The position numbers and the translations under genes are program-made. Below, piece by piece: positions 33,193 through 55,862 of a stretch of 64,000 nucleotides of DNA (position 1 is its first letter; each line of letters starts with the position of its first letter). Location: NCBI GenBank assembly GCA_027038965.1, contig JALWFG010000011.1, positions 248,001-312,000 of the forward strand, written 5' to 3'. A model generated the notes under the pieces. It saw only the letters and a list, made by a program, of their open reading frames with translations. It ran no database searches and had not been told where the DNA came from. This DNA comes from Candidatus Desulfofervidaceae bacterium. Lineage in GTDB: Bacteria; Desulfobacterota; Desulfofervidia; Desulfofervidales; Desulfofervidaceae.

Positions 33193-33229
33193 CACTTTTC
33201 AGATTCAAATCCAGAGGTTGGGTTTAGCT

Positions 33230-36118: not shown

Positions 36119-36130
36119 AGGGGTTTATAT

Positions 36131-36730: not shown

Positions 36731-36749
36731 AATTTGAAGGAGTAGGGCA

Positions 36750-37349: not shown

Positions 37350-37359
37350 GGGTAAGAAA

Positions 37360-38172: not shown

Positions 38173-38197
38173 AAGTTTATAATGAAGGAGCGTTTTG

Positions 38198-38683: not shown

Positions 38684-39123
38684 TGTTGGTCCAACAAGAG
38701 ATAGGAACTGTTATTGATACCTATAATAGTAAGGCCAGAGTTAAGATAGCGCGTAAGTCTGAATGCAATTCCTGTAGAGCAGTTCGTTTCTGCGGAATGT
38801 TAAACCAACAATTCATGGTTCTTGAGGCGTTAAATCCTATAAAGGCTGAGCGGGGACAGCAAGTAGTGGTTAAGTTAGGGGTAGAGAGTGAATTAAAGGC
38901 TACCTTGATTTTGTACTTTATTCCTTTAATGGCCTTTTTAGTGGGGACTGTTTTGGGGTATGAATTCCACCCATTTAAGGGCAATTCTACTTTATCTGCC
39001 TTGATTCTTTCCTTTCTGTTTTTGTTTCTATCTTTCGTTGGTATCAAGCTCTATAATGATAAAATATATAAAACCAAAGCGTTTTATACTCCTGTGATTA
39101 CAGAAATTTTGGAACAATCTTAG
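38683..39123 (+). CDS. rseC: RseC/SoxR-reducing family protein
   Basis: About 146 residues with the RseC/MucC layout. A short N-terminal domain has a Cys group (ECNSCRAVRFCG), then two transmembrane helices (~78-97 and ~108-127) and a short tail. In E. coli RseC works with the Rnf homologue Rsx to keep SoxR reduced, and in other bacteria it occurs inside rnf clusters. Here it follows rnfCDGEAB, which supports a role in electron delivery to, or assembly of, Rnf. Translation is coupled to the upstream USP gene. Confidence 0.8.
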   Translation: MLVQQEIGTVIDTYNSKARVKIARKSECNSCRAVRFCGMLNQQFMVLEALNPIKAERGQQVVVKLGVESELKATLILYFIPLMAFLVGTVLGYEFHPFKGNSTLSALILSFLFLFLSFVGIKLYNDKIYKTKAFYTPVITEILEQS

Positions 39124-39137
39124 CAAGGGGTGAAGAT

Positions 39138-40676: not shown

Positions 40677-40688
40677 GAGAGGTGGAAG

Positions 40689-41561
40689 ATGGCAATTCGT
40701 AAAGTTTTATTTGCTACAAAGTTTAGAGAACTTTCATTTGATGCCTTGAATGCCTTGTTAGAATTGAAAGAAGCGGGTCTGGAAGAGGTAATTCTTTTGC
40801 ACGTTATTGAGAGAGAAAAGGTAGCTTATGTTCCATATGGTGGCTACTTAAAGGAAGAAGAAGAAAGATTGAAGGAAATTGCTAAGGTTAAATTTGAGGA
40901 GTGGCAGGAGTATCTTGGAAATAAGGGAATAAGGGCTAAGGCCAAGGTGTTAGTAGGGCATCCTGTTCCCAAGATATTGGCTATGGCTGAGGAAGAGGAT
41001 GTGGATGTGATTGTGGCAGGGCGAAAAAAGAGACGTCCCTTAGAGCGCTATGTAGGCAGCAATATGATGGATCTGCTTCAGCATTCTAAAAGGCCGGTGT
41101 TGGTATTTAAGTATATGTGGTGTGATATGGAAGGGGAAAGAGAATTTTGTGTGCTTAATCAGAAGTTCTGCGAACATGTTTTGATAGCTACTGATTGGTC
41201 AGAACCAGCTGAAAGGGCACTTGGTTTTGTGAATAATCTTCAAGGTGCTTTGGAAAAGATTACTTTAGTCCATGTAGTTTCAGAAGATTTGGATAAAACA
41301 TCTTTGGAGAATAGGGCCTCAGAGGCTAAGAAGCGGCTGGGAGCGCTCTGTGAAGATTTTAAGCAAAGGGGATTGGAAGCAGACTATTCAATTAATGTAG
41401 GGAAGCCAGTTCAGGAAATATTAAGGGTTGTTCAAGAAAGTAATGCTAATATGGTTCTTATGGGCACTACCGGCAAAGGGCGCTGGCGGGCTTTGTGGTT
41501 GGGAAGTGTTTCCCAAAGGGTAGCCGAGCTGTCTCCAGTTCCAGTATTGCTAGTGCCTTAA
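40689..41561 (+). CDS. Tandem universal stress protein (Rnf-cluster member)
   Basis: 290 residues, two USP domains (~1-145 and ~158-290). The C-terminal domain has an intact nucleotide loop (GTTGKGRWRALWLGSVS), while the N-terminal one is degenerate (GRKKRRPLERYVGSN). Near residue 37 it carries the block LHVIEREKVAYVPYGGYLK followed by an acidic EEEERL segment. The same block occurs at the same position in the two tandem USPs at 51121-52845, in the Mrp cluster. It is 12 bases after the antiporter and 13 before apbE, so it is part of the Rnf-related operon. Confidence 0.85.
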   Translation: MAIRKVLFATKFRELSFDALNALLELKEAGLEEVILLHVIEREKVAYVPYGGYLKEEEERLKEIAKVKFEEWQEYLGNKGIRAKAKVLVGHPVPKILAMAEEEDVDVIVAGRKKRRPLERYVGSNMMDLLQHSKRPVLVFKYMWCDMEGEREFCVLNQKFCEHVLIATDWSEPAERALGFVNNLQGALEKITLVHVVSEDLDKTSLENRASEAKKRLGALCEDFKQRGLEADYSINVGKPVQEILRVVQESNANMVLMGTTGKGRWRALWLGSVSQRVAELSPVPVLLVP

Positions 41562-41574
41562 GGAGGTAATAAAG

Positions 41575-42612
41575 ATGAAAGGTTATTTACAAAAGGCGTT
41601 AGAGGCCTCTTTAAAGAGAAGGGATTTTTTGAAAATTGCAAGCATTTTGGGAATATCTTTAAGTATTTCTCCTGTGACCACGGCTGCCACTTTAACAGAG
41701 GTTAAATTTGATAAAAAACTGCATAAGTTAGAACACACCCTACCTCTTATGGGGACGGATGTGACCATTACTGTTCTTGATAGTTCTGCTGATAGAGCCG
41801 AAGAGGCTATTGAGGCAGGTTTTGATTGTATTAGAAGATTGAGTACTATCTTTGACCGTTTTAAGACAAATACCACAGTAAGCGTTTTGAATACTCGGGG
41901 CAAACTTGATGACGTGCCGCCTCAACTTCAAGAGGTTTGGCAAAGGTCTTTTTATTACTATCGTTTAAGTCAAGGTGCCTTTGATGTTACTGTGAAACCT
42001 CTTGTGGATCTTTTAAAAGATGCTTTTGCTCAAACAGGGAAACCTCCTTCAGAATCACAGATTAGAGAGGCGCTTAAAGTTGTAGGTTCAGATAAAGTAT
42101 CCTTTTCTAATAGAAGAATTCGGCTTTTAGAGGGGATGGGTTTAACCTTTGATGGTATTGCCAAGGGATACATTGTAGATAAGACTGCAGAATTGATAAA
42201 ATCGAAGGGTGTTCCCTATGCCCTCATTAATGCTGGTGGCGACATTCGAGCTATAGGGGATAGGAAGTGGAAGGTGGCTATTAGAGACCCCTTTGATAAA
42301 GAGGCTTATGTAGATGTGATAGCTTTGAATAATAATGCCATTGCCACTTCTGGTAATTATGAAGTTTATTTTGATAAAGAGAAGCTTTACTGTCATATTG
42401 TTAACCCCTCTACTGGTATTTCCCCGCGTTTAAGCAGCAGTACAAGCGTCATAGCCAAGACCGTGACCGATGCCGATGCCCTTTCTACCACGGCCTTTGT
42501 TTTAAAACCACTGCAGGCCAAAAACTTTTTAGAAAGGATTGGTAAAGCAGGTTTGATTATTACCCGACAAGGGATTAAATTGGTTACTAATAATTGGCCT
42601 AGAATTGCTTAA
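41575..42612 (+). CDS. apbE: FAD:protein FMN transferase ApbE
   Basis: A 345-residue exported flavin transferase that attaches FMN by a phosphoester to Thr residues of RnfD and RnfG. The N-terminus (SLKRRDFLKIASILG) has a twin-arginine export motif ahead of a hydrophobic stretch. Catalytic-domain motifs are PLMGTDVTITV, FDGIAKGYIVDK, ALINAGGD and, near the C-terminus, VTDADALSTTAFVL (Mg2+/FAD site). It closes the rnf-containing gene run, which is a logical place for the maturation enzyme. A strong terminator follows. Confidence 0.92.
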   Translation: MKGYLQKALEASLKRRDFLKIASILGISLSISPVTTAATLTEVKFDKKLHKLEHTLPLMGTDVTITVLDSSADRAEEAIEAGFDCIRRLSTIFDRFKTNTTVSVLNTRGKLDDVPPQLQEVWQRSFYYYRLSQGAFDVTVKPLVDLLKDAFAQTGKPPSESQIREALKVVGSDKVSFSNRRIRLLEGMGLTFDGIAKGYIVDKTAELIKSKGVPYALINAGGDIRAIGDRKWKVAIRDPFDKEAYVDVIALNNNAIATSGNYEVYFDKEKLYCHIVNPSTGISPRLSSSTSVIAKTVTDADALSTTAFVLKPLQAKNFLERIGKAGLIITRQGIKLVTNNWPRIA

Positions 42613-42635: not shown

Positions 42636-42669
42636 AAAAAGCACCGCTTAGATCTAAGCGGTGCTTTTG
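42636..42669. terminator. Bidirectional terminator between apbE and mrp clusters
   Basis: A perfect inverted repeat: AAAAGCACCGCTTAGA pairs with TCTAAGCGGTGCTTTT. The flanking A-run and T-run make it work in both directions. It ends the plus-strand tmc/rnf/apbE run and the minus-strand mrp operon. Confidence 0.92.
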
Positions 42670-42697: not shown

Positions 42698-44356
42698 CTA
42701 GCCAGCAGAGATAAAGAAACTAATGGTAAAAAGGGCCAAAACAAAGATTACCCCAATCCCTATAGGTCTGGGTACAGGGAGTGGTTTTTTACTTAAGGCG
42801 ATGATTGACGTTACCAAGTCACTCATTCCTGCTTGAATGGCCGTTCTGACATCATTAAGGAAGAAACAGAATTTGACAAGCCCTCTTCCTGCCATTCTGT
42901 AAAAATAATCAAAATCTAATACGATGCCTTCATGAGGAGCAAAATGTTCTTTAAAAAGCATAAAGACCAATCCAGAGAGCATAAACAACTGAATAATACC
43001 AATCACGTGAGCAGGGGCAAAGGCATGATAATGGAGAGGATAGTATGGAAGCACATGAAAAAGCACCTTGGGATATACACCAATAAAGACACATAGAAAT
43101 GCAGTTAAAATCATGGCCAACTGCATATTAATAGGCGCTTCTTTTGTCTCTATTTCCTCATTAGGGGCAAAGAAGGCAAAATAGCAAAGTTTGACAAAGG
43201 AAAGGAAGGTACCTACTGCCCCTAAGAGGAGAAGAAGATAGAGGATAGTCATATGTTCCTCAGCCGCTGCTAACATCACCATGCCTTTACTTACAAAGCC
43301 ATTGAAGCCAGGGGCGCCAGCAATAGAAAGAGAGGCTATAATACAGGTGATACAAGTGATGGGCATATACTTAGCTAAGCCTCCAAGTTGGGTTAGTTTT
43401 CTCTTGCCAGTCATATAAATTACCGAACCCATACACATGAACAGGAGTCCCTTATACAAAATGTGATTGAATACGTGAGCAATCCCACCGTTTACGGCTA
43501 GTTCTGTTCCAATTCCTACTCCAGCCACCATGTAGCCTACCTGACTTATAATATGGTAGGACAGCAATCTTCGGACATCATTTTGCATTAGAGCAAATAT
43601 GACACCATAAACTGCCATAATACCACCCATATAGGCAACCAACTCTGTTCCAGCAAAGCAACGGGCCAAAACATAAACGCCAGTTTTGGTGGTGTAAACG
43701 CACATAAAAACACTACCAGTGATTGTTCCTTCAGGATAGGCATCAGGGAGCCAAGTGTGGATGAAAATAAAGGCAGTGTTTAACCCAAAGCCGATTAAGA
43801 TAAGCAACCAAGCTAGCCCTCTTTCTATTTGTCCCACGTCTAAGCTACCAGTATTTGCCACATGGATTGCAATTCCTGCCAACAGGCAGCATCCCCCTAA
43901 TAGGTGCATGATGATGTACCTGAATCCTGCATCTAGAGCCTGTTTATCTCTGCGGTACCAAATTAGAAATACCGAAGCAACTGCCATAATTTCCCAGAAT
44001 GCATAAAGGCTGAAAAAGTCTCCTGAGAAAACTACTCCCAGTGAACTTCCTACATAAAGAAAGGCAGCAATGTGTTGACCATCATCTTCAACATGCAAGG
44101 CATAAAGCAAACCCAGAAAGGCAATGATGACAAATATGTAGGCTACTACCAAACTTAGCCTATCAACCTTTAATAATATGAGGTTGTAATTGAGAAAATG
44201 ATAAACCCAGCTTGTCCCATGTTTTAACTGAAGGATATCAATAAAGGCAATTACTGGAACCAAAAGCAAATAGGCCTTTTTAAGGCCCCCCCTAAATAGG
44301 GGGATAAGAAATGCCCCTAACAAAAAGATAAAGCCGGGAGGGATAGGTTTAATCAT
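42698..44356 (-). CDS. Antiporter-like membrane subunit (NuoN/MrpD type), third large subunit
   Basis: A ~552-residue multi-helix membrane protein of the proton-conducting family shared by complex I (NuoL/M/N) and Mrp antiporters. It has SGDFFSLYAFWEIMAVASVFLIW (helix 5 Glu), a helix-7-like LNTAFIFIHTWLPDAYPEG, the Lys-containing TTKTGVYVLARCF and GFNGFVSKG near the end. The start is ATG 44356, preceded by AAGGAGG, not the upstream in-frame codon at 44389. It is the last gene of the operon, overlapping the preceding small gene by 8 bases. Standard Mrp operons have two such subunits (A and D); this one is extra. Confidence 0.82.
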   Translation of the reverse strand: MIKPIPPGFIFLLGAFLIPLFRGGLKKAYLLLVPVIAFIDILQLKHGTSWVYHFLNYNLILLKVDRLSLVVAYIFVIIAFLGLLYALHVEDDGQHIAAFLYVGSSLGVVFSGDFFSLYAFWEIMAVASVFLIWYRRDKQALDAGFRYIIMHLLGGCCLLAGIAIHVANTGSLDVGQIERGLAWLLILIGFGLNTAFIFIHTWLPDAYPEGTITGSVFMCVYTTKTGVYVLARCFAGTELVAYMGGIMAVYGVIFALMQNDVRRLLSYHIISQVGYMVAGVGIGTELAVNGGIAHVFNHILYKGLLFMCMGSVIYMTGKRKLTQLGGLAKYMPITCITCIIASLSIAGAPGFNGFVSKGMVMLAAAEEHMTILYLLLLLGAVGTFLSFVKLCYFAFFAPNEEIETKEAPINMQLAMILTAFLCVFIGVYPKVLFHVLPYYPLHYHAFAPAHVIGIIQLFMLSGLVFMLFKEHFAPHEGIVLDFDYFYRMAGRGLVKFCFFLNDVRTAIQAGMSDLVTSIIALSKKPLPVPRPIGIGVIFVLALFTISFFISAG

Positions 44357-44555
44357 AGAAATCCTCCTTTTTCCTTGCAAAAGAACCAATGAATTTGATG
44401 ATGATTAGCAGCAAGAACGTACCTATAATTCCAAATACCGCATCTACTGAAGGCACATCATCCCACGGGAAAAAGTGATGATGTATTGGTAGAAAGCCAA
44501 TCACTACTGTTAACCCCACCAATACCCAAAAGATTGTCTTTAGCCGTGTTTCCAT
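44349..44555 (-). CDS. Small two-helix membrane protein of the mrp operon
   Basis: 68 residues with two hydrophobic helices (~8-22 and ~40-56) joined by a loop containing HHHFFPWDD. I do not recognise a family. It starts at the last base of the upstream antiporter gene stop and overlaps the next gene, so it is translated as part of the mrp operon. A structural subunit of the complex is likely. Confidence 0.65.
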   Translation of the reverse strand: METRLKTIFWVLVGLTVVIGFLPIHHHFFPWDDVPSVDAVFGIIGTFLLLIIIKFIGSFARKKEDFYD

Positions 44556-46051
44556 TAGTGCACCCCCATTATATTTTGAGTTGCAATGCTTGCTATTTTG
44601 AAGAAGTGGGTAAAGGCATCAGGAAAGATGCAGAAAACCACAGAAAAGATAGCGGTTATTACTAAGGGAACGACGACAAATGCCGGTGCCTCGCTGATAT
44701 GATTACCAGGATTGCTGGTTTGAGGCGACTTAAAGAATGCATTGATAATTACTGGGAAAAAGTATACGGCGTCTAAAATGGCACTAGCAAGAAGCACAAC
44801 CAAAAAGATGATATGTTTTGTTTCCATTGCCCCCACACAGAGGTACCATTTGCTTATAAACCCACATATCGGAGGAATACCTGTTAAGCCGATGGCACCG
44901 ATGGTAAAGGCGGCCATCGTGAATGGCATTTGTCTTCCGATGCCATTCATGTCGCTTATATATTCTTTGTGAGTTTTGACGTAAATGGCTCCGGCACAAA
45001 GAAACAATGTGATTTTCATGAAACCATGAAAGGCGATATGGAGCATACTTCCTTTAATGGCTTCAGGAGAAAGGAGGGCAGCTCCCAAGATAATGATGGA
45101 GAGGTTGTTTATGGTTGAAAATGCAAGTCTTCTTTTCAAGTGGTCTTGAGCAATAGCAAGAAGATTGGCCACAATAATGGTGAATGAGACTACGTAAGCA
45201 AGAATGATCCAGAGGTTTAAATCAGACAGAAGTTTTGGTCCAAAGACATAAAGAATAACCCTCAAGCAACAGAATACCCCGGCCTTGACTACGGCCACGG
45301 CGTGAAGCAAGGCACTCACAGGCGTTGGGGCGATCATGGCAGAAGGAAGCCATTCGTGCAAGGGCATAATGGCTGCCTTGGATCCAAAACCAATCATAAA
45401 GGTAAGAAACAAGAGCCGAAGTTGGTTTGCTGTTCCATGTCCAGCGAGAAATCCACCTGGAGCAAAGTCAACGCTGCCGGTAAGGTAATAAGTCCATCCA
45501 ATGGAAAACAGTGCAAAACAACCACCTGTGAGGAGGTAGGCCAGATATTTGCGTCCCGCTTTAATAGCTTCGGGTGTTTCTTTATGGGCTACCAAAGGAA
45601 ATGTAGATACTGTGAGAACTTCATAAAAAAGGTAAAGAGTCACTAAGTTCCCAGACATGGCTACACCAACGGCCGAAAAAATAGCAATAGCAAAGCAGAA
45701 AAAGAATCTGGTTTGGGCGTGTTCTTTGAGACCTCGCATATAACCGATTGAGTAAAAGGAAACCGCTATCCAAAGTCCTGAGGCCAATAGGGCGAATATC
45801 ATTCCAAAGGCATCTACCCTAAACTGTAAAAACACATGGGGCCAAATTTGGAACAAGGTAAACTCTATCATTTTACCGCTCAGCACTATCGGTAGCATGG
45901 AAAGAACAATTGCAAACTTGATAACCGAAGCTGCAATGCTCCAAAAATCCCTTAGGTTGGGATGCCTTTCTCCTGTGAAAAGGATAAGGAAGGCAGCAAC
46001 TAAGGATGTCAATATTGCCAACAGAGGCTTAATTGAATGTACCATTTCCAT
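44555..46051 (-). CDS. Antiporter-like membrane subunit (NuoL/MrpA N-terminal type)
   Basis: A 498-residue protein with ~14 helices: SGNLVTLYLFYEVLTVSTFPLVAHKETPEA (Glu in helix 5), FGSKAAIMPLHEWLPSAMIAPTPVSALLHAVAVVKAGVF (helix 7/8 Lys and His), and GLTGIPPICGFISKWYL. The LPSAMIAPTPVSALLHAVAVVKAG stretch is the NuoL/MrpA-like signature. It lacks the C-terminal DUF4040/MbhE extension of full MrpA; those parts are encoded separately at 48388-48914. AGGAGGG precedes the ATG. Confidence 0.83.
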   Translation of the reverse strand: MEMVHSIKPLLAILTSLVAAFLILFTGERHPNLRDFWSIAASVIKFAIVLSMLPIVLSGKMIEFTLFQIWPHVFLQFRVDAFGMIFALLASGLWIAVSFYSIGYMRGLKEHAQTRFFFCFAIAIFSAVGVAMSGNLVTLYLFYEVLTVSTFPLVAHKETPEAIKAGRKYLAYLLTGGCFALFSIGWTYYLTGSVDFAPGGFLAGHGTANQLRLLFLTFMIGFGSKAAIMPLHEWLPSAMIAPTPVSALLHAVAVVKAGVFCCLRVILYVFGPKLLSDLNLWIILAYVVSFTIIVANLLAIAQDHLKRRLAFSTINNLSIIILGAALLSPEAIKGSMLHIAFHGFMKITLFLCAGAIYVKTHKEYISDMNGIGRQMPFTMAAFTIGAIGLTGIPPICGFISKWYLCVGAMETKHIIFLVVLLASAILDAVYFFPVIINAFFKSPQTSNPGNHISEAPAFVVVPLVITAIFSVVFCIFPDAFTHFFKIASIATQNIMGVH

Positions 46052-46064: not shown

Positions 46065-47570
46065 TTAAATGTTCGCTGGGATAGCGAATTTAATAATAGA
46101 AGCAATGATATGTCCGCTAAACACACCAATTAGAATGATGCCAATGGCTACCAAAAACATGGGAATCAGCATCCCAATAGGCGCCTCATCGAACTTTACT
46201 ATTTCAGGTTGTCCTCCGTCGTGAGCGTAGGCAGGTTCCCTTGGTTCTAAATAGGCGTTTTCTATTACCCTGAAGAAGACAGCCACGTTGAATAAGGTAC
46301 TTGTCAGTATGACTGCAATAAACACCCACTTATGGGCTGCGAGGGCACCAAGGATGAGATACCATTTGCTGAAAAAGCCACACATGGGTGGAACGCCTAT
46401 GACAGAGAGGGCTCCTACAATCAGAACTGCCATAGTAAGTGGCATTTTTTTATGAAGAAACCGAAACTGATAAATGTCTCTGGTTCCGGTCTTGTAAACA
46501 ATTGCCCCAGCGACAAGAAAGAGGCATGACATCATAAACGCATCGTTTATGATGTGTAAAATGGCACCTGTTAAGGCCATCCGATTGGCTATGGCCACTC
46601 CAATAACAATATATCCTACTTCTGCTACAAGGATATAGGTGAGCATACGTTTAAAATCCCTTTGGGCCAAGGCCATAATGGAGCCAAAGAGCACTGCACC
46701 CGCTGCCAGCCATCCCAAAATATTGTGAGCGATAGGCATAACTTCAAGAGAGAAGTGAGGACCAAAGACGCTAAAGATAATCCTGAAAAGCACATAAGCG
46801 CCAACCTTGGTCATGGTAGGAGCCACTAAGGTGCTTACCGATGAGGGAGCCAGGGTGTAGGCATCTGGTAACCAAATATGAAGGGGAAATAGTGCCATCT
46901 TCAAACTTATACCTACAATAAAGAATACAAAGGCCGTTAACACTACCTTTGAACCATAAAGATGTGGAAGCAGTCGGGCCAAATCGGCCATATTTAAAGA
47001 GCCAGTAACGATATAAAGATACCCAACGCTCAAAAGATAGAAACATGCGCCAATAGTTCCCATGATTACATAATTAAAAGCGGCCATAGGGGCATGTTTT
47101 TCTCCCATGGCGATCAAGGCATAACCAGAAAGCGAGGTGATTTCTAGAAAGACATAGAGGTTAAACATATCTCCAGTTACTACAATTCCTAAGAGACCAG
47201 TGATTTGGAGCAGATAAAGAGAGTAAAAATAGGGAATTTTGCTCTTTGGGATTTCCTTTTCTGCACTAGGCCCAGAGTACCATAACGACATGAGACTAAC
47301 GAATGATACCAAAACCAGCATGGCGGCATTCAAATGGTCTACTACATACTCTATGCCCCAAGGAGGAAGCCACCCGCCTTGGTAATAATGAATAGTCCCA
47401 TGAAGGATTACCTTCTCAAGAAGCATGGCTGAGAAGATAAAGGATGCCAATGTAGCCAAAAAGGCAATTGGATAGCAAAGTTTTCGCTTTAACAACCCTA
47501 AAATGACCACCAAAAATGCGGTCATCAGGGGAACCGTAACGATTAATACAGGCAAGTTTTTGCTAATCAT
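46065..47570 (-). CDS. mrpD: Mrp antiporter subunit D
   Basis: A 501-residue antiporter-like subunit. VTGDMFNLYVFLEITSLSGYALIA, GISLKMALFPLHIWLPDAYTLAPSSVSTLVAPTMTKVGAYVLFR and GVPPMCGFFSKWYL are standard MrpD/MnhD motifs with the conserved Glu, Lys and His. It starts 8 bases inside the end of mrpC. In gene order it occupies the position of MbhH/MrpD. Confidence 0.88.
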   Translation of the reverse strand: MISKNLPVLIVTVPLMTAFLVVILGLLKRKLCYPIAFLATLASFIFSAMLLEKVILHGTIHYYQGGWLPPWGIEYVVDHLNAAMLVLVSFVSLMSLWYSGPSAEKEIPKSKIPYFYSLYLLQITGLLGIVVTGDMFNLYVFLEITSLSGYALIAMGEKHAPMAAFNYVIMGTIGACFYLLSVGYLYIVTGSLNMADLARLLPHLYGSKVVLTAFVFFIVGISLKMALFPLHIWLPDAYTLAPSSVSTLVAPTMTKVGAYVLFRIIFSVFGPHFSLEVMPIAHNILGWLAAGAVLFGSIMALAQRDFKRMLTYILVAEVGYIVIGVAIANRMALTGAILHIINDAFMMSCLFLVAGAIVYKTGTRDIYQFRFLHKKMPLTMAVLIVGALSVIGVPPMCGFFSKWYLILGALAAHKWVFIAVILTSTLFNVAVFFRVIENAYLEPREPAYAHDGGQPEIVKFDEAPIGMLIPMFLVAIGIILIGVFSGHIIASIIKFAIPANI

Positions 47571-47949
47571 TTTTCCTTATCTCCAATATTTCATTTTCTT
47601 CTAAAGTTCCATACTGTCTATGGATGAGGATGATTAATGCCAGGGCCACACCCGTTGTCGCAATCCCGACTACAATCGCTGTAAGCATAAGAACATGAGG
47701 CAGAGGATTTATGTAATTAAAGGGATTGATGTGATGAATTACCCCATGTGCTTCCTCTGGAATGATGGGAACCGTAGCTCCCTTTTTGCAACCAATGGAT
47801 ACATAATATAGAATTATAGCCGTTTGAAAGATGTTCATCCCTATTAGCTTTTTCACAAGGTTTCTTTTTCCCATCATTCCATAAAAGCCAATCATCATTA
47901 AGACGATATATATCCAGTAATTGTAATGGCTAACTATGAAATCCATCAT
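47563..47949 (-). CDS. mrpC: Mrp antiporter subunit C (NuoK-like)
   Basis: 128 residues, three helices as in NuoK/MnhC. LVKKLIGMNIFQTAIILYYVSIG and ALMLTAIVVGIATTGVALALIILIHRQYG-like segments (near 85-115) are diagnostic. There is a hydrophilic loop between helices 2 and 3 that is longer than in NuoK. ATG 47949 overlaps the mrpB stop by 4 bases. Confidence 0.88.
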   Translation of the reverse strand: MMDFIVSHYNYWIYIVLMMIGFYGMMGKRNLVKKLIGMNIFQTAIILYYVSIGCKKGATVPIIPEEAHGVIHHINPFNYINPLPHVLMLTAIVVGIATTGVALALIILIHRQYGTLEENEILEIRKND

Positions 47950-48404
47950 TTAAATTCCCCCCTTGTCCGCTTGGATTTGGAAGAAAGGGCGAGCATAATG
48001 GCTACCATGACTGCCATAACCGTAATACCTACCCCAGTTTCTACTGATAAGATTCCTAGGGCTCGGCGCTCTGCAATGGCTACAGGAAAGGGCAATTTAG
48101 AATAATCAAGGAAATTACCACCAAACAAAAGGCATAGTGCCCCTGTACCGGCATAGATAAAGACCCCGATAGCGACAAAGGCAATCATCAATTTTTCAGG
48201 TAAACGTTTTTTGACTTCATCCATTCCATAAACCACAGCCAATAAGATGAAGCTCGCTCCTAAAATAACCCCCCCTTGGAATCCCCCTCCAGGACTTTCA
48301 TGTCCGTGGGCAATTACATAAAGGCCATAAATTTGAATAAAGGGAATGAGTAACCTTGTCATTGTTTTTACAATCACATCTTCGTATTTAGTAATCATCT
48401 TCAT
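47946..48404 (-). CDS. mrpB: Mrp antiporter subunit B (MnhB)
   Basis: 152 residues with four helices. The MnhB hallmark YGLYVIAHGHESPGGGFQGGVILG is complete, with RRALGILSVETGVGITVMAVM near the end. It overlaps the preceding small gene by 17 bases and mrpC by 4. Equivalent to MbhF in archaeal membrane-bound hydrogenases. Confidence 0.9.
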   Translation of the reverse strand: MKMITKYEDVIVKTMTRLLIPFIQIYGLYVIAHGHESPGGGFQGGVILGASFILLAVVYGMDEVKKRLPEKLMIAFVAIGVFIYAGTGALCLLFGGNFLDYSKLPFPVAIAERRALGILSVETGVGITVMAVMVAIMLALSSKSKRTRGEFK

Positions 48405-48672
48405 CCCTCCTTAAAAGAAAAATACAGGCAATCCCTGCGGTGAAAATCACAGTTGTTTCTCCCATTGTGTCATAACCTCTGTAATCAGCTACCACAGATG
48501 TTACGGCATTAGGCGTAGCCGTTTCCTCTACTGTTTTTTCTATGTACCGGGGCGAAACATGTAAGGCGGCCGGAGCATTGGGATCACCCCATGGAGGCAT
48601 ATCCAATGTTCCGTAAATTAACAATGCCCCAGTAATCAACACAGCCAAGAAAGATAATGCTTTTAGACTCAA
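48388..48672 (-). CDS. MbhE-like subunit (separate piece of MrpA C-terminus)
   Basis: 94 residues with helices at ~5-22 and ~70-88. Between them is ASPRYIEKTVEETATPNAVTSVV-like sequence (actual reading from 39: SPRYIEKTVEETATPNAVTS) ending in DYRGYDTMGETTVIFTAG. This NAVTSVVxDYRGYDTLGE pattern is the MbhE domain, normally fused at the end of MrpA. Here it is its own gene between the DUF4040 gene and mrpB. Confidence 0.82.
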   Translation of the reverse strand: MSLKALSFLAVLITGALLIYGTLDMPPWGDPNAPAALHVSPRYIEKTVEETATPNAVTSVVADYRGYDTMGETTVIFTAGIACIFLLRRDEDDY

Positions 48673-48914
48673 TCTTTTGACCTCCTTGTAGTTTGGTAAA
48701 TTGCGGCAACGAAGAAGAGTGTGCTCACACCTGCTCCAACCGAGGCTTCAGTAAAGGCCACATCTACCGCGCCCATTTCCGTCCATAGCATTGCCATACA
48801 AAAACTATAGGCACCTAGGATCACAGCCGCACTTAATAGGTCCTTTACCATCATTGCCCCAATGGCGCAGATTACTACAAATAAAAGAATGACTAAATCT
48901 AATTGCCAGATCAT
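48669..48914 (-). CDS. MbhD-like DUF4040 subunit (separate piece of MrpA)
   Basis: 81 residues with three helices: KDLLSAAVILGAYSFCMAMLW then DVAFTEASVGAGVSTLFFVAA. The DVAxTEAxVGAG motif identifies the DUF4040/MbhD domain, usually within MrpA just before the MbhE part. Its ATG overlaps the mrpG stop and its stop overlaps the MbhE-like start, each by 4 bases. Confidence 0.84.
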   Translation of the reverse strand: MIWQLDLVILLFVVICAIGAMMVKDLLSAAVILGAYSFCMAMLWTEMGAVDVAFTEASVGAGVSTLFFVAAIYQTTRRSKD

Positions 48915-49237
48915 CTATAATCCTCCTTTTTCCATGGTTTTAAACCACATACAAAGGCCGCTTTGGCAATGGCGTGTGTTGCAGTAGGATTGGCCAGAAA
49001 GATGAAAACCGAGATGAGAAGAATTTTTAGAGCCAGCAGAATAGAGCCATGATATGCCTCGTAGAGCGCGAGACTGGTGATAATCATAAGAGACCCTAAG
49101 GTGTCGCACTTTCCTGTACCATGCATCCGACAGTAAAAATCTGGGAATCGAAGTAACCCTACTGTGCCACTAAATAGGAAAAAAAGTCCCACCAAAGACA
49201 GCCCAATGGTTATAATATTGACAATTTGACTAAGCAT
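48911..49237 (-). CDS. mrpG: Mrp antiporter subunit G (MnhG)
   Basis: 108 residues, three helices. The MnhG signature GTVGLLRFPDFYCRMHGTGKCDTLGSLMI is intact and NPTATHAIAKAA ends the domain. Start and stop abut mrpF and the DUF4040 gene. Confidence 0.9.
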   Translation of the reverse strand: MLSQIVNIITIGLSLVGLFFLFSGTVGLLRFPDFYCRMHGTGKCDTLGSLMIITSLALYEAYHGSILLALKILLISVFIFLANPTATHAIAKAAFVCGLKPWKKEDYR

Positions 49238-49509
49238 CAGACCTCTCCTTTTTTCTCAAAGAATTTGGCAATGGCCACAGTGCCAATGAAATTGAGCAAG
49301 GCATAAACCAAAGAAATATCTACAAACATGTCTACTCGGGCATAAATGAAGGCCATGAGAAGTAGCACTACTGTAGTCTTAGTGCCAAAGACATTTACAG
49401 CCACAATTCTATTCCATGCCCCTGGCCCAAACACGACCCTATAGAAGCAAAGCAGGGCTAAAAAACTAATTGCCAGTGATAGTCCCAAAAAGAAATTTGT
49501 CATTGTCAT
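49237..49509 (-). CDS. mrpF: Mrp antiporter subunit F (MnhF)
   Basis: 90 residues with three helices. CFYRVVFGPGAWNRIVAVNVFGTKT and the following ALLNFIGTVAIAKF are the MnhF pattern (GPsxxDRxxAxN) with Asp-Arg replaced by Asn-Arg. Three bases lie between it and mrpE. Confidence 0.88.
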   Translation of the reverse strand: MTMTNFFLGLSLAISFLALLCFYRVVFGPGAWNRIVAVNVFGTKTTVVLLLMAFIYARVDMFVDISLVYALLNFIGTVAIAKFFEKKGEV

Positions 49510-49512: not shown

Positions 49513-50136
49513 TTATGCCTCCTGTAAGATGTGGGCAAGTTCACCTACAAAGGCATGATCTGCTTCCACAAACACATGGGCAACCCGATCTTCCATTTCC
49601 CCAGAGAGCAGATCTTCAGCTACGGCCTTGTCAATTGCATGGACATAATACTCACCTTCGCGAATATCCACTGTAATAGTACCGGGAGTGAGGGTAATAG
49701 AATTGGCAAACGTGACTAAAGAAACATCGCTTTCTAGTTTGGATTTAAACCGAATGATTTCAGGATCAAGAGGCATTTTAGGGCTCAAAGCCAGTTTGGC
49801 CACGTGAACATTAGCGAGCACGATTTGATAGATTAACCACGGGATGTAGAGGGCAAACCTTTTGGCGATAGTCAACCGATGAGGAGCGAGAATGTTCATA
49901 AAAAGCAGATCGTGGGAGATAAGGGCTACCAATCCACAGGAGAATACCCCCAGACCAACATGGAGGGGATCAGTCCTTCCAGAGCATAGATACCACGTGA
50001 CTGCCATAATGAAGAACGTAGCCGTAAAGCTCAATGCCCCAGCCCATTCAGATTTAACAGCCTGGGACTGCATCCACATTCTATCTTTTACTGTTTTGAT
50101 CAAATCATCCGCATAAGCAAGCTTTGTGACTTCCAT
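49513..50136 (-). CDS. mrpE: Mrp antiporter subunit E (MnhE), extended
   Basis: 207 residues. Two N-terminal helices and the MnhE core (RFALYIPWLIYQIVLANVHVAKLALSP, then ANSITLTPGTITVDIREGEYYVHAID) are clear. The N-terminus (~35 residues with a charged start) and C-terminal tail are longer than in the ~160-residue standard form. First gene of the antiporter subunits proper, ten bases after the degenerate regulator gene, with GAGG upstream. Confidence 0.88.
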   Translation of the reverse strand: MEVTKLAYADDLIKTVKDRMWMQSQAVKSEWAGALSFTATFFIMAVTWYLCSGRTDPLHVGLGVFSCGLVALISHDLLFMNILAPHRLTIAKRFALYIPWLIYQIVLANVHVAKLALSPKMPLDPEIIRFKSKLESDVSLVTFANSITLTPGTITVDIREGEYYVHAIDKAVAEDLLSGEMEDRVAHVFVEADHAFVGELAHILQEA

Positions 50137-50146: not shown

Positions 50147-51070
50147 TTAATTTTTTATTGGCTCCATAAGATTATATTTTCTTAGTTTGGCATAAAGGGT
50201 ACTCCGGCTAATGTGCAGTTTTTTGGCCACTTGGAGCTTGTTCCAATTGTTTTCTTTTAGCATTTTTAACAGAAATTCCCTTTCATTTTCTTCAAATGAG
50301 CTTGTTTTTTGTGTTTGAACCCTTTCTTTAATTTTATTAGGCAGGGCATCTACATCAATTACATTTGTGCTGCTCATAAGATACGCATATTGAACTGTAT
50401 TTTCCAACTCCTTGACGTTTTCAGGCCAGGAATAGCTCATTAAAAGCTGTATTGCTTCATTGGAAAAGGTCTTTTCTCCACTCTGCTTAGCAAGTTCATG
50501 TAGAAAATATTCAATCAACAAAGGAATATCTTCCCTCCTCTCTCTTAAAGGGGGAACAACAATAGTAATAATGCCCAGACGATAATAAACTTCTTCCAAA
50601 AAGGTGCCCTTTTCTGTTTCCTCTTTAAGATTTTTCTTGCTTCCTGCCATAATTCTTATCTGAGCGGGGATGCTTTCACTTCCGCCTAGCCTTTCAAAGA
50701 CTTGGGTTTCCAAGAGTCGTAACAACTTGAGCTGAGAGATTGGAGATAATAACTCTATATTATTTAAGAATATCGTGCCTTTATCTACAATTTCAAAGCG
50801 TCCCTTTTTTCTCTCGGTTGCCCCATAAAATGCCCCAATTTCATGTCCAAAAAGTTCACTTTCAAGCAGCATTTGGGGATATGCTTCACAGTCAACGGAG
50901 ACAAACGGTTCCCTACTCCGAGCGCTATTTAAATGAATTGCCTTTGCAATCAGTTCCTTTTCAGTTCCCTCTTCGCCTTCAATCAATACTGGAGCCTCTG
51001 TGGGACCAAGTTCAATAATCATTTGGCAAATTTGTTGCATTTTTACCGAGTATGTTTCAGGCCAAATCAC
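50147..51070 (-). CDS. Degenerate sigma-54 enhancer-binding protein (no receiver, broken ATPase)
   Basis: A ~307-residue AAA+ plus Fis-HTH protein with no N-terminal sensor. All three functional elements of an enhancer-binding protein are altered: Walker A reads GEEGTEKE (normally GESGTGKE, ~32-39), the sigma-54 loop reads GAFYGA (normally GAFTGA, ~79-84) and Walker B reads FLNNIE (normally FLDEIG, ~101-106). The HTH (NWNKLQVAKKLHISRSTLYAKLRKYNL) is intact and nearly the same as in the regulator at 53062. It probably binds DNA but cannot hydrolyse ATP or open sigma-54 promoters, so it may compete with the intact protein. GTG 51070 is the likely start because AAAGGAGAG precedes it; the in-frame TTG at 51100 lies inside a palindrome. 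Confidence 0.85.
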   Translation of the reverse strand: MIWPETYSVKMQQICQMIIELGPTEAPVLIEGEEGTEKELIAKAIHLNSARSREPFVSVDCEAYPQMLLESELFGHEIGAFYGATERKKGRFEIVDKGTIFLNNIELLSPISQLKLLRLLETQVFERLGGSESIPAQIRIMAGSKKNLKEETEKGTFLEEVYYRLGIITIVVPPLRERREDIPLLIEYFLHELAKQSGEKTFSNEAIQLLMSYSWPENVKELENTVQYAYLMSSTNVIDVDALPNKIKERVQTQKTSSFEENEREFLLKMLKENNWNKLQVAKKLHISRSTLYAKLRKYNLMEPIKN

Positions 51071-51081: not shown

Positions 51082-51100
51082 TTGTCCAAAAAATGGACAA
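51082..51100. promoter_or_regulatory. Palindromic operator before the degenerate regulator
   Basis: TTGTCCAAAAAATGGACAA: perfect 7-base arms TTGTCCA and TGGACAA with an A5 spacer. It ends right beside the Shine-Dalgarno of the regulator gene and 20 bases after the USP stop. The same arms recur upstream of the USP promoter (52975, 53033, 53072 regions). Confidence 0.7.
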
Positions 51101-51120: not shown

Positions 51121-51963
51121 CTAAGGCACAATTAACGTTGGAACTGGCGCGTATTCTGACACCTTATAACAGGGACTTCCAAACAGTAGTTCTTTTAATC
51201 GATTCTTTTTGTTTGTTCCCATTGTTACAGAAGTTGGGTGATAATCCTTTATGGCCTCAATGATTTCGTCTGTAACCTCCCCTGTATAGAAATGCAGTTC
51301 TGCATTGAGTCCCCGATTGATGCTGTAGGCGCAGAGTTCTTCTAGTTTTTTTCTAAGTTCTCGAAGTTCCTTCAGGCTCAGTTTCTCGCGAATTACATTT
51401 ACAATGTCTATCTTTTTAATGATGTTTTTCAGATTAAACAGGTAATAAAAGGCCTTTTGAGATGCAGGTGACCAATCGGTTGGGAAAAGCACATGTTCGA
51501 AAATCTTTTTAGGTGTGTTGAAACCAGGCATTTTTTTGTCTAAAAGAAGAAGTGGTTTGACCGTTCTTTGGACCAAGCTTCTGATAACTGGACCATAGGA
51601 CTTTTTGAAAAATGGGAAACTCCGCTTTTCTGCTAATCCTAACATAACCAAATCCGCATCTTCTTTTTCAGCAATACTTAGAATTATAGGAATTGGGTTG
51701 CCTACCTTTATGTACTCTTTGCAATTAAAACCGTCTAATTTTCGAATCCAATTCTCAAAACGAATGTTGGCGATGGCCTTTAACCTTTCTTCTTCTTCCT
51801 TGAGGTAGCCTCCGTAAGGTACAAAGGCTACTTTTTCTCTTTCAATCACATGGAGAAATACCACTTCCCTTGCCCCTACGTTCTGAAGTTCCTTCAGAGT
51901 ATCAGCCACATTGATGCCGCCCTCTTTAAAATTGGTTGCATATAAGACCTTTTCTACTCTCAT
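51121..51963 (-). CDS. Tandem universal stress protein (Mrp-cluster member 2)
   Basis: 280 residues, two USP domains. It carries LHVIEREKVAFVPYGGYLK near residue 37, identical but for one residue to the tandem USP in the Rnf cluster. The second nucleotide loop is degenerate (GTNKKNRLKELLFGS, lacking the second Gly), and the first reads LGLAEKRSFPFFKKSYG. ATP binding is doubtful in both halves. It lies 24 bases downstream of the next tandem USP and 20 bases before the operator of the degenerate regulator. Confidence 0.85.
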   Translation of the reverse strand: MRVEKVLYATNFKEGGINVADTLKELQNVGAREVVFLHVIEREKVAFVPYGGYLKEEEERLKAIANIRFENWIRKLDGFNCKEYIKVGNPIPIILSIAEKEDADLVMLGLAEKRSFPFFKKSYGPVIRSLVQRTVKPLLLLDKKMPGFNTPKKIFEHVLFPTDWSPASQKAFYYLFNLKNIIKKIDIVNVIREKLSLKELRELRKKLEELCAYSINRGLNAELHFYTGEVTDEIIEAIKDYHPTSVTMGTNKKNRLKELLFGSPCYKVSEYAPVPTLIVP

Positions 51964-51987: not shown

Positions 51988-52845
51988 TTATGGTACTACT
52001 AATGTTGGCACTTCAGACATTTCTGCCACCCAAAATGAAGGGCTTCCAAACAACAGCTCTTTTAGGCTTTGCTTTTTAGGTTTACCAATGGCAATAGCCG
52101 TTGCTTTGTGTCTTTCCGCCGCCTGGATGATTTGTTCCGCAGCGTCACCGGTATAAAAGTATGTCTCGGCAGGTAAGCCTTCTCTTTTTAAAAAGTTAAA
52201 GGTTTCTTCTAATTTTCTTTTAAAACTTTTTAAAGTAGGGGTAGCAACCTTTTCATTTATGACATGAATTACATCAACTTCTTTAATGAGTTTCTTAAAG
52301 CCTAGCAAAAAAGCACAGGCATGATTCGCTGAAGGAGACCAATCCGTAGCCAAAATAACATGCTCAAAGACCTCCTTGATCCTGCTCTTAAAGACCTCTT
52401 CCTCTTTGTTGATGAGAAGGACTGGGACAGGAGAACGTCTGATTAAACTAGCAATGGTAGAGCGCCCATAAATTGTTTCTAGAAGGGCAACAAACTTTGA
52501 TTTTTTCCGTTTTCCAGCAACGACGAGCCCAATGTCCTTATCTTTTTCTATTGTTCTAAGAATTTGGGCTACAGGGATTCCTACTTCTACCCGAATTTCC
52601 GTTCCGATTCCCTTCTTTTGCATTTTTTCTGCGAGACTTTCAAAGTAGGCTGTGGCAATTTCACGCAACCGCATTTCCTCATCCTTTAAGTACCCACCGT
52701 AAGGCACAAACGCTACCTTCTCCCTTTCAATGACATGAAGAAAAATTACCTTATTGAATCCTACTTCCTGACAATCAGAAAGAGTTTTCGCAAAGTTATA
52801 GGGAGATTCTGTTAAATCTGCCGCACAGAGTATTTTCTTACTCAT
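51988..52845 (-). CDS. Tandem universal stress protein (Mrp-cluster member 1)
   Basis: 285 residues, two USP domains; the family block LHVIEREKVAFVPYGGYLK is present near residue 35, followed by a DEEMRL variant of the acidic tail. The nucleotide loops are degenerate (GKRKKSKFVALLETIYG and GKPKKQSLKELLFGS). It is the first gene after a sigma-54 promoter and has AAAGGAGG before its ATG. It probably heads a transcript that includes the second USP, the degenerate regulator and possibly the mrp genes. Confidence 0.86.
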   Translation of the reverse strand: MSKKILCAADLTESPYNFAKTLSDCQEVGFNKVIFLHVIEREKVAFVPYGGYLKDEEMRLREIATAYFESLAEKMQKKGIGTEIRVEVGIPVAQILRTIEKDKDIGLVVAGKRKKSKFVALLETIYGRSTIASLIRRSPVPVLLINKEEEVFKSRIKEVFEHVILATDWSPSANHACAFLLGFKKLIKEVDVIHVINEKVATPTLKSFKRKLEETFNFLKREGLPAETYFYTGDAAEQIIQAAERHKATAIAIGKPKKQSLKELLFGSPSFWVAEMSEVPTLVVP

Positions 52846-52880: not shown

Positions 52881-52897
52881 AGCAAAAGATGTGCCAA
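52881..52897 (-). promoter_or_regulatory. Sigma-54 promoter of the USP/regulator/mrp unit
   Basis: On the minus strand TTGGCACATCTTTTGCT: the -24 GG and -12 GC are 10 bases apart and the match to the TGGCACG-N4-TTGCW consensus is close. It is ~36 bases before ATG 52845 and points at the USP genes. Three palindromic candidate activator sites lie 80-190 bases upstream. Confidence 0.82.
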
Positions 52898-52973
52898 ACA
52901 AATTAAGTTACGGAGAAAACATAGAAAAACAGCATTGACCTTTTTGTTGATAATTGGGAATACAGAAAATTGT

Positions 52974-53090
52974 CCAAAATTTAGACAGTTTGAAAATCTA
53001 AGGTAAAAAACCTTCTAATCAAGCATAATTTTGCCGTCCATCTTTTGGACAAACAGTTTGTCTAAGAAGTGGACACTTTTTTGTCCAATA
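52974..53090. promoter_or_regulatory. Cluster of three TTGTCCA-type activator sites
   Basis: Reading along: TTGTCCA-AAATT-TAGACAG near 52974, CCGTCCA-TCTTT-TGGACAA near 53033-53051, and a reversed-arm copy TGGACA...TGTCCA near 53072-53090 that reaches into the 3' end of the regulator gene. Half sites GTCTAA and TTTAGAC also occur. The first two share the N5 spacing of the perfect palindrome at 51082. Position and repetition fit enhancer sites for the Fis-type HTH shared by the two regulators. Confidence 0.65.
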
Positions 53091-55779
53091 GATTGTAGCG
53101 TTTAAGTTTGGAATAAAGTGTACTGCGGCTGATGTTCAATTTTTTGGCTACTCGCATTTTGTTCCAATTGCATTCTTCTAACATCTTCAGCAAAAAACGC
53201 CTTTCATTTTCAGCAAAAGAGAGGGTTTCTTTTTCTTCTTTTTCGGTGCCTCTTAAATGCATAGGAAGGGCAGTTTTCTCAATAAGTTCTCCCTTTGTAA
53301 GCACAAAGGCATGTTCAATGGTATTTTCTAATTCCCTTACATTTCCTGGCCAATCGTAATCCATGAGAATTCGCATTACTTCAGGGGTTACTCCCTTGAT
53401 GTGTTTATTTTCTTTTTCATTCAATTTTTTGATAAAATGTTCTACCAAAAGCGGGATGTCATTTTTCCTTTCCCTCAATGGGGGCAAAAGGATAGGAATA
53501 ACATTAAGACGATAGTAAAGATCTTCCCTAAAATTGCCTTTTTTGACTTCTTCAAGCAAGTTCTTGTTTGTGGCTGCAATGAGTCTTACATCTACCTTTA
53601 TGGTTTTGTTACCCCCCAAACGTTCAAATTCTTGAAATTGGAGAAGTCTCAAAAGCTTTACTTGAGATACTGGTGGAATGTCTCCAACTTCATCCAAAAA
53701 GACAGTTCCCCCATTTGCCAATTCAAACCGACCTTTTTTCTGAGATACAGCGCCAGTAAACGCCCCCTTTTCATATCCAAATAATTCACTTTCAAGCAAA
53801 GTTTGAGGATAGGCAGAACAGTTGATGACCACAAAGGGCTTATTTTTCCTGAGGCTTTTGGCATGGATAGCTCGGGCTACCAATTCTTTACCTGTTCCGC
53901 TTTCACCCAGAATGAGGACTGTGGCGTTTGTGGGAGCAATATCATCGATGAGTCGATATATTTGAAGCATCTTGGGGTCTTTGCCCACAATAGAACCATA
54001 CGAATAGGAAATGATTTGTTTTTTTAATGCCTTAAGTTTTTCTTCCTGTTGGACAATCCTTTTTATTACACCAGAGACCTGAGAAAGCATGATGTATACA
54101 AATCTAAAATCCTTAGAAGTAGCCTTTTTATTATTTAAGAACAATATTAATCCCCCTATGGGTTCACCCTCTTTAGAAATTGGGATAATAAAGGGATAAC
54201 TAGTGAGCCTTTTCCAGCAATGCAATTTAGCGGTAAAGTAGGGTTTTTTAGAGTTGTTTTTTAACAATTTTACGATTTGCCTTTGGCATTTTTCACATAA
54301 AGAGAGGTTGTTTTTGAGATTTTCTAAAGACATTTCAAACAGACTTTCTTTATCCGAAGTAAGGACAAGGGGCAAAACCTGTTTGTAAGGAAGTATTTCT
54401 TTAACCCTAGGCAAAATGCAGTTAAATACTTCTTTAAAGGTGTTTTTTTCTCCAACTGTCTGAGAAATATGGTAAAATGTTTCAATCTCTTTGTATGACT
54501 TTTCTAATTCTTTTGTTTGTTCAATAACCTTTTTTTGAAGATTTTTGCTTAACTCTTTGGTTTCTTCATGAAGTTTGGCGTTTTCAACCGCAATCCCGAT
54601 TTGATACCCTAAGGTTTGGAGAAAGTTCATTTCTTGCTCATCAAAATGATGCTCTTTTTTGAAGCCCATTTCAATTATACCAACGATCTCATTGGAGGCT
54701 ATTAAAGGAATGGCTATCAAGCTTTTGCAGTTAAGATTTTCGGGTTGGTTTGGGAAGACCTGTTTGGCATCTAACAAAGTAACTTGCTTTTCTGAGGGAG
54801 GGATATAAATGGCTTCAACCGTAGAAAATAGAGGTAGGTCTTCTTTGGATACCCCTTGGCAATATGCGAGGTAGGTATAGTTGTTTTCTACCAAATAGAT
54901 TATTAGGACTTCAGCTCCAAATGTTTCAGAAAGTTCTTGAGAACATATTTCCAAAACTTTGTCTAAGTCAATAGAACTAGTGATAGTGGTGGTAATTTTG
55001 TGAAGGGTAGTTAACTCATCATGGCGTTTTTTAAGTTCTTCGGCAGCAATCTTGGCGTCGGTGATATTTCTAATGACTACAATTGCGTAGATTACCTTAC
55101 CCCTTTCGTTTTTTATGGGATATACTCCAATGCTTAAATAAAGTGTGTGCTGTCCTTTCTTTTGGGTATGGATTTTTGTAGATGGCCTTCCTGTGGCAAA
55201 AACTTCCTTTACAGGACATACCTCGCCACAGGCGTTACAGGTGTTATCAGAACCAGATAAAATCTTAAAACATGATTTCCCAATGGCCTCTTCTCTGGAG
55301 ATATTAAGATATTTGAGAAAGGCAGAATTGATTTCTTTGATTTTAAAATTTTTATCTACGATTAGAATGTAATCTCGGATACTGTCAAAGGTGCCTTGAA
55401 GGAAGTTCTTCATTTCTATTAACATTCGTTGAGTGTTTAAAAGGCGTTTTTCAAGAAGTGTCCAGATAATCCTGGCGGTGTTGTGGTCTATGAGGTAAAT
55501 ATTGGAAGGTATTTCTTCGGCGATAGCCCTTTTAATCTCATCTTGACCAGTGATTTCAAGAACAATATCAACATTAGAAAATTGAAACAAATCATGATAA
55601 TCATTGGTGGTAAAAATCCCTGTTTTTTGAGCATATTTAAATCCGGGTGCATTTGGATTGATGTCGGCTACCCCAACTACATTGACAAGGTGGCTAAATT
55701 GGTCACTCATCAGGACATTAAGGATTTCATAACAGGCCTTTCCGCCACCCACTATGGCAATGTTCAATTTCTTCAGCAT
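53062..55779 (-). CDS. Large sigma-54 activator with NAD-like, PAS and GAF sensor domains
   Basis: About 905 residues. Order: Rossmann-like N-terminus (1-110; LNIAIVGGGKACYEILNVL, then VVGVADINPNAPG, as in nucleotide-binding sensors), PAS (~130-245) with a Cys set (CNACGEVCPVKE) that could bind a metal or cluster, GAF (~265-410), coiled linker, second GAF-like region with CEKCQRQ (~445-590), AAA+ (~615-850; GESGTGKE, GAFTGA, GTVFLDEVG all intact) and Fis-type HTH (CNWNKMRVAKKLNISRSTLYSKLKRYNLL). ATG 55779 is preferred to TTG 55788. It should activate the promoter at 52881. The Rossmann and Cys features suggest redox or energy-state sensing, which is inference. Confidence 0.87.
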   Translation of the reverse strand: MLKKLNIAIVGGGKACYEILNVLMSDQFSHLVNVVGVADINPNAPGFKYAQKTGIFTTNDYHDLFQFSNVDIVLEITGQDEIKRAIAEEIPSNIYLIDHNTARIIWTLLEKRLLNTQRMLIEMKNFLQGTFDSIRDYILIVDKNFKIKEINSAFLKYLNISREEAIGKSCFKILSGSDNTCNACGEVCPVKEVFATGRPSTKIHTQKKGQHTLYLSIGVYPIKNERGKVIYAIVVIRNITDAKIAAEELKKRHDELTTLHKITTTITSSIDLDKVLEICSQELSETFGAEVLIIYLVENNYTYLAYCQGVSKEDLPLFSTVEAIYIPPSEKQVTLLDAKQVFPNQPENLNCKSLIAIPLIASNEIVGIIEMGFKKEHHFDEQEMNFLQTLGYQIGIAVENAKLHEETKELSKNLQKKVIEQTKELEKSYKEIETFYHISQTVGEKNTFKEVFNCILPRVKEILPYKQVLPLVLTSDKESLFEMSLENLKNNLSLCEKCQRQIVKLLKNNSKKPYFTAKLHCWKRLTSYPFIIPISKEGEPIGGLILFLNNKKATSKDFRFVYIMLSQVSGVIKRIVQQEEKLKALKKQIISYSYGSIVGKDPKMLQIYRLIDDIAPTNATVLILGESGTGKELVARAIHAKSLRKNKPFVVINCSAYPQTLLESELFGYEKGAFTGAVSQKKGRFELANGGTVFLDEVGDIPPVSQVKLLRLLQFQEFERLGGNKTIKVDVRLIAATNKNLLEEVKKGNFREDLYYRLNVIPILLPPLRERKNDIPLLVEHFIKKLNEKENKHIKGVTPEVMRILMDYDWPGNVRELENTIEHAFVLTKGELIEKTALPMHLRGTEKEEKETLSFAENERRFLLKMLEECNWNKMRVAKKLNISRSTLYSKLKRYNLLDKKVSTS

Positions 55780-55862
55780 AGCTCGCAACCTGACATATTT
55801 CTGTTAGTTCAATAGAAATTTATCATGAGGATTAAAAATTGTCAAAGTTTCCGCAAGCTGGA

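Follow-up and report, generated by a model that had tools for sequence, protein, structure and literature searches.

A USP–mrp operon that depends on sigma-54 and carries a broken relative of its own activator as a built-in feedback brake is, taken as a whole statement, a reading that we consider somewhat likely. Its first component is held far more firmly: the intact activator, A, together with sigma-54 very probably drives this unit of universal stress protein (USP) and Mrp-type antiporter genes. The broken relative, P, is encoded within the unit. The window, i.e., the whole stretch of DNA analysed, comprises 64,000 nt of Candidatus Desulfofervidaceae bacterium GCA_027038965.1 (contig JALWFG010000011.1, positions 248,001–312,000 of the forward strand). 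Sequence comparison supports the promoter, the putative enhancer sites, the intact A, the broken P, their conservation and the selection on P. The control region is organized as follows:

53062–55788, minus strand: A, intact sigma-54 activator (bEBP) of 908 aa with Rossmann-like, PAS, GAF, AAA+ and HTH_8 parts
53059–53075, no strand assigned: UAS1, putative, TGTCCACTTCTTAGACA; inverted repeat; overlaps the end of the A gene
53035–53051, no strand assigned: UAS2, putative, TGTCCAAAAGATGGACG; inverted repeat, conserved; 64 bp from UAS3
52971–52987, no strand assigned: UAS3, putative, TGTCTAAATTTTGGACA; inverted repeat, conserved
52881–52897, minus strand: sigma-54 −24/−12 promoter TTGGCACATCTTTTGCT; exact pattern match, conserved
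51083–51099, no strand assigned: fourth site, perfect, TGTCCATTTTTTGGACA; 12 bases before the likely P start, in the window only

An earlier note on this DNA had claimed a near-consensus sigma-54 promoter with exact −24/−12 spacing just upstream of the first tandem USP, and both points were confirmed. The GG and GC elements stand at the fixed −24/−12 spacing at 52881–52897, and TTGGCACATCTTTTGCT occurs once in the window, with 0 expected (100 shuffles). It is the sole match to TGGCAC-N5-TTGCW in the window at zero mismatches, and 35 nt separate its end from the ATG of USP1 (52845), a start preceded by AAAGGAGG. With up to one mismatch, the same pattern gave four matches in the window against 2.35 expected; since this is chance level, the weaker sigma-54-like matches are uninformative. 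With one mismatch allowed, TTGGCAC-N5-TTGCW was found 53 times (28+25) across the whole genome and the reversed control pattern 6 times (0+6); the nine perfect matches include 52881–52897. The genome has one sigma-54 gene (Sigma54_DBD, E 7.1e-64). The enrichment and this gene argue that the genome uses such promoters and that 52881–52897 is among its best. Elsewhere in the window, a sigma-54-like site on the plus strand (TTGGCATATTTTTTGCC, 5968–5984) lies about 48 bases before an acetyl-CoA-synthetase-like gene (6032–7729, AMP-binding E 4.4e-53).

Downstream of the promoter, the unit consists of the following features:

51988–52845, minus strand: USP1, universal stress protein (Usp, E 2e-23)
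51121–51963, minus strand: USP2, universal stress protein (Usp, E 3.9e-22)
50147–51070, minus strand: P, pseudo-activator with AAA+ and HTH only, broken ATPase motifs, likely GTG start at 51070
49513–50136, minus strand: mrpE (MNHE, E 4.1e-35)
49237–49509, minus strand: mrpF-like, named from size, order and relatives
48911–49237, minus strand: mrpG-like, named from size, order and relatives
48669–48914, minus strand: mbhD-like, named from order
48388–48672, minus strand: mbhE-like (MbhE, E 2.2e-9)
47946–48404, minus strand: mrpB-like, named from order
47563–47949, minus strand: mrpC-like, named from order
46065–47570, minus strand: mrpD-type subunit 1, from order and blast to relatives
44555–46051, minus strand: mrpD-type subunit 2, from order and blast to relatives
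42698–44389, minus strand: mrpD-type subunit 3 (Proton_antipo_M, E 3.7e-49), after a 165-base gap
42637–42668, no strand assigned: 14-pair hairpin, likely terminator, between convergent units

MrpE, an MbhE-like protein and proton-channel subunits occur in one cluster, which marks it as Mrp-type with predicted antiport; the remaining subunit names were given by order and by blast to relatives. Ten antiporter-complex genes were counted instead of the eleven claimed previously. The gaps of at most about 50 bases claimed for the unit hold from USP1 to the second mrpD-type gene (≤50) and fail only at the last gene (42698–44389). A strong promoter before mrpE, named beforehand as the observation that would speak against control from 52881–52897, was not seen: the nearby minus-strand sigma-70-like matches reach 9/12 and lie inside genes, and such matches total 37 against a shuffled mean of 32.9. 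Terminator-like matches on the minus strand within the unit were only short (5–10 pairs) and inside genes, none of them convincing. The earlier note's proposal that the sigma-54 promoter serves the USPs and possibly the antiporter is well supported as to control of the unit, by the intact adjacent activator, the enhancers and conservation; as to its reach, the order of the genes and the absence of any convincing internal promoter or terminator lead us to infer that transcription extends to the last antiporter gene. The scan listed no terminator-like site from the A stop codon to the promoter, which leaves room for read-through from A. A plus-strand cluster (33218–42612) converges on the mrp unit and contains Rnf-type genes (RnfC, RnfD/NQR2, FMN_bind, two Rnf-Nqr, ferredoxin-like and RseC), a CitMHS_2 transporter, presumably NhaD-like, ApbE and a third USP, which shares a VIEREKVA.VPYGGYLK stretch with USP1 and USP2.

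The gene directly upstream of the promoter and USP1 encodes A; both this activator and the enhancer sites had been overlooked before. A matches Sigma54_activat (E 4.1e-73), PAS, GAF and HTH_8, and its N-terminus matches NAD_binding_3 weakly (23.1 bits against a cut-off of 24). With a Sigma54_activat AAA+ domain, Walker A and B, GAFTGA and an HTH, it has the full set of bEBP features. All 14 A-type proteins compared, including those of two genomes in which no P was seen (G009 and G047), are intact at every motif position. The A proteins of two further families, f19 and f51, are 623–642 aa long, and that of G022 (f19) has a receiver domain instead of the Rossmann-PAS-GAF part, with histidine kinases adjoining. 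The Rossmann-like N-terminus of A (the first ~113 residues) is also N-terminal in histidine kinases beside the activator-less USP–mrp loci L056, L059 and L060. At three USP–mrp loci without P in view, those of G312, G161 and G209, a histidine kinase whose N-terminus matches A residues 1–113 is present instead, and at L110 a related kinase adjoins the activator. This recurrence suggests that a shared sensor has been joined to two kinds of output.

Between the A gene and the promoter lie three 17-bp inverted repeats of the form TGTMC-N7-GKACA (53059, 53035 and 52971). In the 64 kb, TGTCC-N7-GGACA occurs seven times at up to one mismatch against 0.94 expected, and four of these matches are at the USP–mrp locus. 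Because the pattern was derived from the window sequence, relatives provide the test that counts. The fourth site (51083–51099) is not conserved in them. As a genome-wide regulon mark the repeat was rejected: with one mismatch allowed, TGTCC-N7-GGACA has 66 matches and the control 68, and neither of the other two perfect repeats in the genome has a strict sigma-54 pattern nearby. Control of nhaD (39138) by the same sites was likewise unsupported, with no repeat there and only a 2-mismatch sigma-54-like site at 39110. By sequence and conservation, the three repeats are putative activator enhancer sites.

The control region recurs in relatives, as scored with sigma-54 weights set by hand from the consensus. 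In all of the first seven loci (the window, four of f19 and two of f51), the best sigma-54 score beats shuffles (p ≤ 0.01), and two or three enhancer sites (≤1 mismatch) are present against 0.02–0.07 expected. Seven further f51 loci (six with P, plus G399) played no part in defining the pattern; all seven have at least one enhancer site (p ≤ 0.035) and six have the promoter (p ≤ 0.025). In the seventh, G402, where the gene start is annotated too early, AAGGCACGCATATTGCA falls just within the annotated frame, at the place predicted by the spacing. In total, promoter and enhancer sites are found in 14/14 loci with readable upstream DNA (13 with P, the contig of G399 being cut); contig ends truncate the upstream DNA of the P loci of G405, G397 and G401. 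Start to start, 64–67 bp separate the second site from the third in all 14: 64 bp in the window, G350 and G076; 65 bp in G406, G407 and G400, and also in G398, G399 and G402 when one 2-mismatch site is counted; and 67 bp in the four f19 loci and G404. The promoter lies 90 bp from the third site in the window, 100–103 bp in eight f51 loci and 117 bp in the four f19 loci and G404. Where no P was in view (11 upstream regions, 10 genomes), eight of the regions gave no sigma-54 signal at p < 0.05. A sigma-54-like site was found in the other three, G008 (p 0.043), G047 (0.03) and G233 (0.0); G047 has an intact A-type activator with an N-terminus as in A, and no activator was seen in the examined stretches of G008 and G233. 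An enhancer-like site was found in one of the 11, G209 (one site, p 0.035). At the f19 and f51 loci L028, L051–L055, L101, L103, L104, L106, L107 and L111, the control region is common to the USP–mrp unit and a second, divergent USP gene, which has a TTGACA-like sequence near its start.

The "regulator" that the earlier note had placed in the operon is indeed a regulator-type gene, but its nature had been missed: it encodes P, a broken sigma-54 activator. The listed open reading frame starts at a TTG (51100), and the GTG at 51070 is the likelier start. P matches Sigma54_activat (E 7e-54) and a Fis-type HTH (E 1.2e-10) and has no sensor domain. In the window copy, the Walker A segment reads GEEGTEKE, the loop GAFYGA, the Walker B segment FLNNIE and the sensor II segment NVKEL. 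Across the 16 P proteins found, Walker A (GxxGxGK) is broken in every case by a Glu replacing the Gly before the Lys, the GAFTGA loop is present in none, and the Walker B Asp and the first Arg of the FREDLYYR segment are lost in all. The copy in G094, truncated at its contig end, is absent from the tree and the 15-row alignment. Sensor II Arg is replaced by Lys in 15/15 P proteins, and the recognition helix SRSTLY is retained in 15/15. SRSTLY also occurs in the A proteins of the P loci, except G407. The assignment of the arginine finger residues is taken from work on PspF and NtrC. With these motifs lost, P is predicted to be unable to hydrolyse ATP or to engage sigma-54, and very likely also unable to serve a neighbour's ATP site.

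An AlphaFold model (mean pLDDT 77.5) indicates that P retains the AAA+ fold. Its best match is the AAA+ domain of ZraR (PDB 1ojl, chain 1ojl_D, E 6.5e-25, 41% identity), and the AAA+ domain of NtrC1 (PDB 1ny6) has the same fold. Unlike P, the aligned ZraR keeps the Walker and GAFTGA motifs, and NtrC1 also keeps them. In the AAA+ part, dN/dS was 0.065–0.182 for seven P pairs and 0.103–0.162 for four A pairs; by this sequence measure, P is under purifying selection. The 15 complete P proteins group as one clade (100/99) in a 47-protein tree, nested within a larger clade (100/98) that includes the A proteins from the window, f19 and f51; the branch of the window P is long (0.83). The single nested clade indicates one origin of P, out of the AAA+ and HTH output module of the A lineage.

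MrpE searches covered 59 relatives and 395 genomes of the phylum (68 matches at E ≤ 1e-40); 39 mrpE neighbourhoods were taken from both searches, and a locus was lengthened by one extra stretch. Six P proteins were made into a profile, which was run on the 395 phylum genomes plus 5 and 17 genomes of two families, i.e., 409 distinct genomes, the five best candidates per genome being scored in the 395-genome search. P was found in 16 genomes of three families: one of the five searched in the window's own family (it was not found in the other four), four of five in f19 (one copy cut by a contig end) and 11 of 17 in f51. In the 395-genome search, six complete P proteins scored 541–628 bits, their A partners 432–468 and everything else at most 396, the cut G094 copy giving 353. 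In f51, an A match was obtained in 10 of the 11 genomes with P; G399 (f51) has A, and its contig ends in mrpE. P lies inside the target operon of A in 16/16. It follows mrpB in 15/15 relatives, with mrpF next in the 13 whose contigs continue; in the window it precedes mrpE. A scan of named genomes with P gave three loci, which were rejected, the best match of the frame found being A in all three. The only other searched genome of the genus, G001, lacks any mrpE match at E ≤ 1e-8, a sign that the unit may have been acquired or lost inside this genus.

Transcription by sigma-54 polymerase requires a ring of activator subunits driven by ATP. In the proposed mechanism, A, made from its own gene just upstream, would sense a signal through its Rossmann-PAS-GAF part, bind the three TGTMC-N7-GKACA sites and use ATP to open sigma-54 polymerase at 52881–52897, giving a single transcript of both USPs, P and the antiporter genes. 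P, keeping its DNA-binding helix but no longer binding ATP and lacking both the sigma-54 contact loop and the first arginine finger, would on accumulating occupy the same enhancer sites or join the ring of A as a dead subunit, so that expression is limited. The perfect extra site just before P in the window (51083–51099) is in keeping with such a brake. Against the reading weigh the sigma-54-like sites in three of the 11 regions without P, the failure to find P in four of the five searched genomes of the window's family, and the absence of the fourth site from relatives. We infer a shared set of binding sites for P and A, an inhibitory role for P and a single transcript across all genes. The nearest known case is DVU2956/DVU2960 of Desulfovibrio vulgaris, in whose genome TGT and ACA half-site enhancer motifs are reported; according to the available part of the source, an intact activator there controls a sigma-54 operon encoding a second, GAFTGA-altered (GAFPGA) activator (PMC4641369). 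That alteration is described as a single substitution, unlike the lost ATPase of P, and the operon concerns transmembrane transport, the main text not containing "antiporter", "Mrp" or "universal stress" (PMC4641369). Since the operon-encoded DVU2960 failed to bind the promoter sites in gel shifts, in the portion of the report available, a binding site shared by A and P is not to be assumed (PMC4641369).

The main rival is that P acts as a co-activator without which expression stays below its full level, either forming a mixed ring with A or tethering A to the enhancers; we regard this as possible though rather unlikely. Mixed complexes of paralogous activators do co-activate: HrpR/HrpS form mixed rings, and VnfA1/VnfA3, likewise reported as hetero-oligomers, bind the same promoters (available part of PMC9542535). 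Similarly, FleQ of Rhodobacter sphaeroides drives an operon encoding a second activator, FleT, which then forms a complex with it (PMC7277832, in the part available). P is moreover co-inherited with A. Yet Walker A, Walker B, sensor II, the sigma-54 loop and the first arginine finger are lost in every P that has the segment concerned, whereas FleT is a sigma-54 activator that helps to activate later genes (PMC7277832, same part) and no broken ATPase is described for VnfA1/VnfA3 or HrpR/HrpS in the accessible text (PMC9542535). That P instead works alone at other, sigma-70 promoters as an ATP-free repressor or activator, with no feedback on A, is improbable. Caulobacter and Rhodobacter NtrC and VpsR share with P an activator fold without the sigma-54 contact loop, and such activators are reported to regulate sigma-70 promoters, some without ATP hydrolysis; Caulobacter NtrC requires its Walker residues (available part of PMC10274813). 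Unlike P, they are not operon-encoded relatives of an intact partner (PMC10274813, as far as available). P has no sensor domain, lies in the target operon of A throughout and carries a matching recognition helix, and the repeat is not enriched genome-wide.

It is comparably improbable that the sigma-54 promoter serves the USP genes alone, perhaps with P, and that the mrp genes have a promoter of their own. The 165-base gap before the last gene and the weak sigma-70-like matches inside genes fit such an arrangement; the close spacing of the genes from USP1 through mrpD-type subunit 2, the missing strong promoter before mrpE, and the USP-mrpE-mrpB order behind the same control region in f19 and f51 argue against it. 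The loss of all catalytic motifs and the long branch of the window copy (0.83) might also be read as those of a functionless, decaying remnant. We give this very little credence: P is an open frame in 16 genomes, forms one clade with the same Gly-to-Glu change throughout, and has dN/dS values (0.065–0.182 in the AAA+ part) that speak against decay.

A more specific form of the brake reading stands at about an even chance. In it, P would be a dedicated pseudo-activator whose ATPase died once and which three families have retained through descent or transfer. Placed in its intact relative's operon, it would exert dominant-negative feedback on the transcription, by sigma-54, of genes for a stress-protein/antiporter complex and so act as a brake.

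A literature search, mostly short of full-text depth, retrieved no description of sigma-54 control of an Mrp–USP unit or of a conserved operon-encoded dead activator. The system combines ordinary sigma-54 logic with a conserved pseudo-activator, the latter apparently undescribed. In a defined lineage, it connects sigma-54 with universal stress proteins and with a sodium/proton antiporter complex. If the brake reading is true, a conserved dead relative of the ring, placed in the target operon, would be a simple way to tune a sigma-54 switch, and pseudo-ATPases would be regulators of bacterial enhancers.
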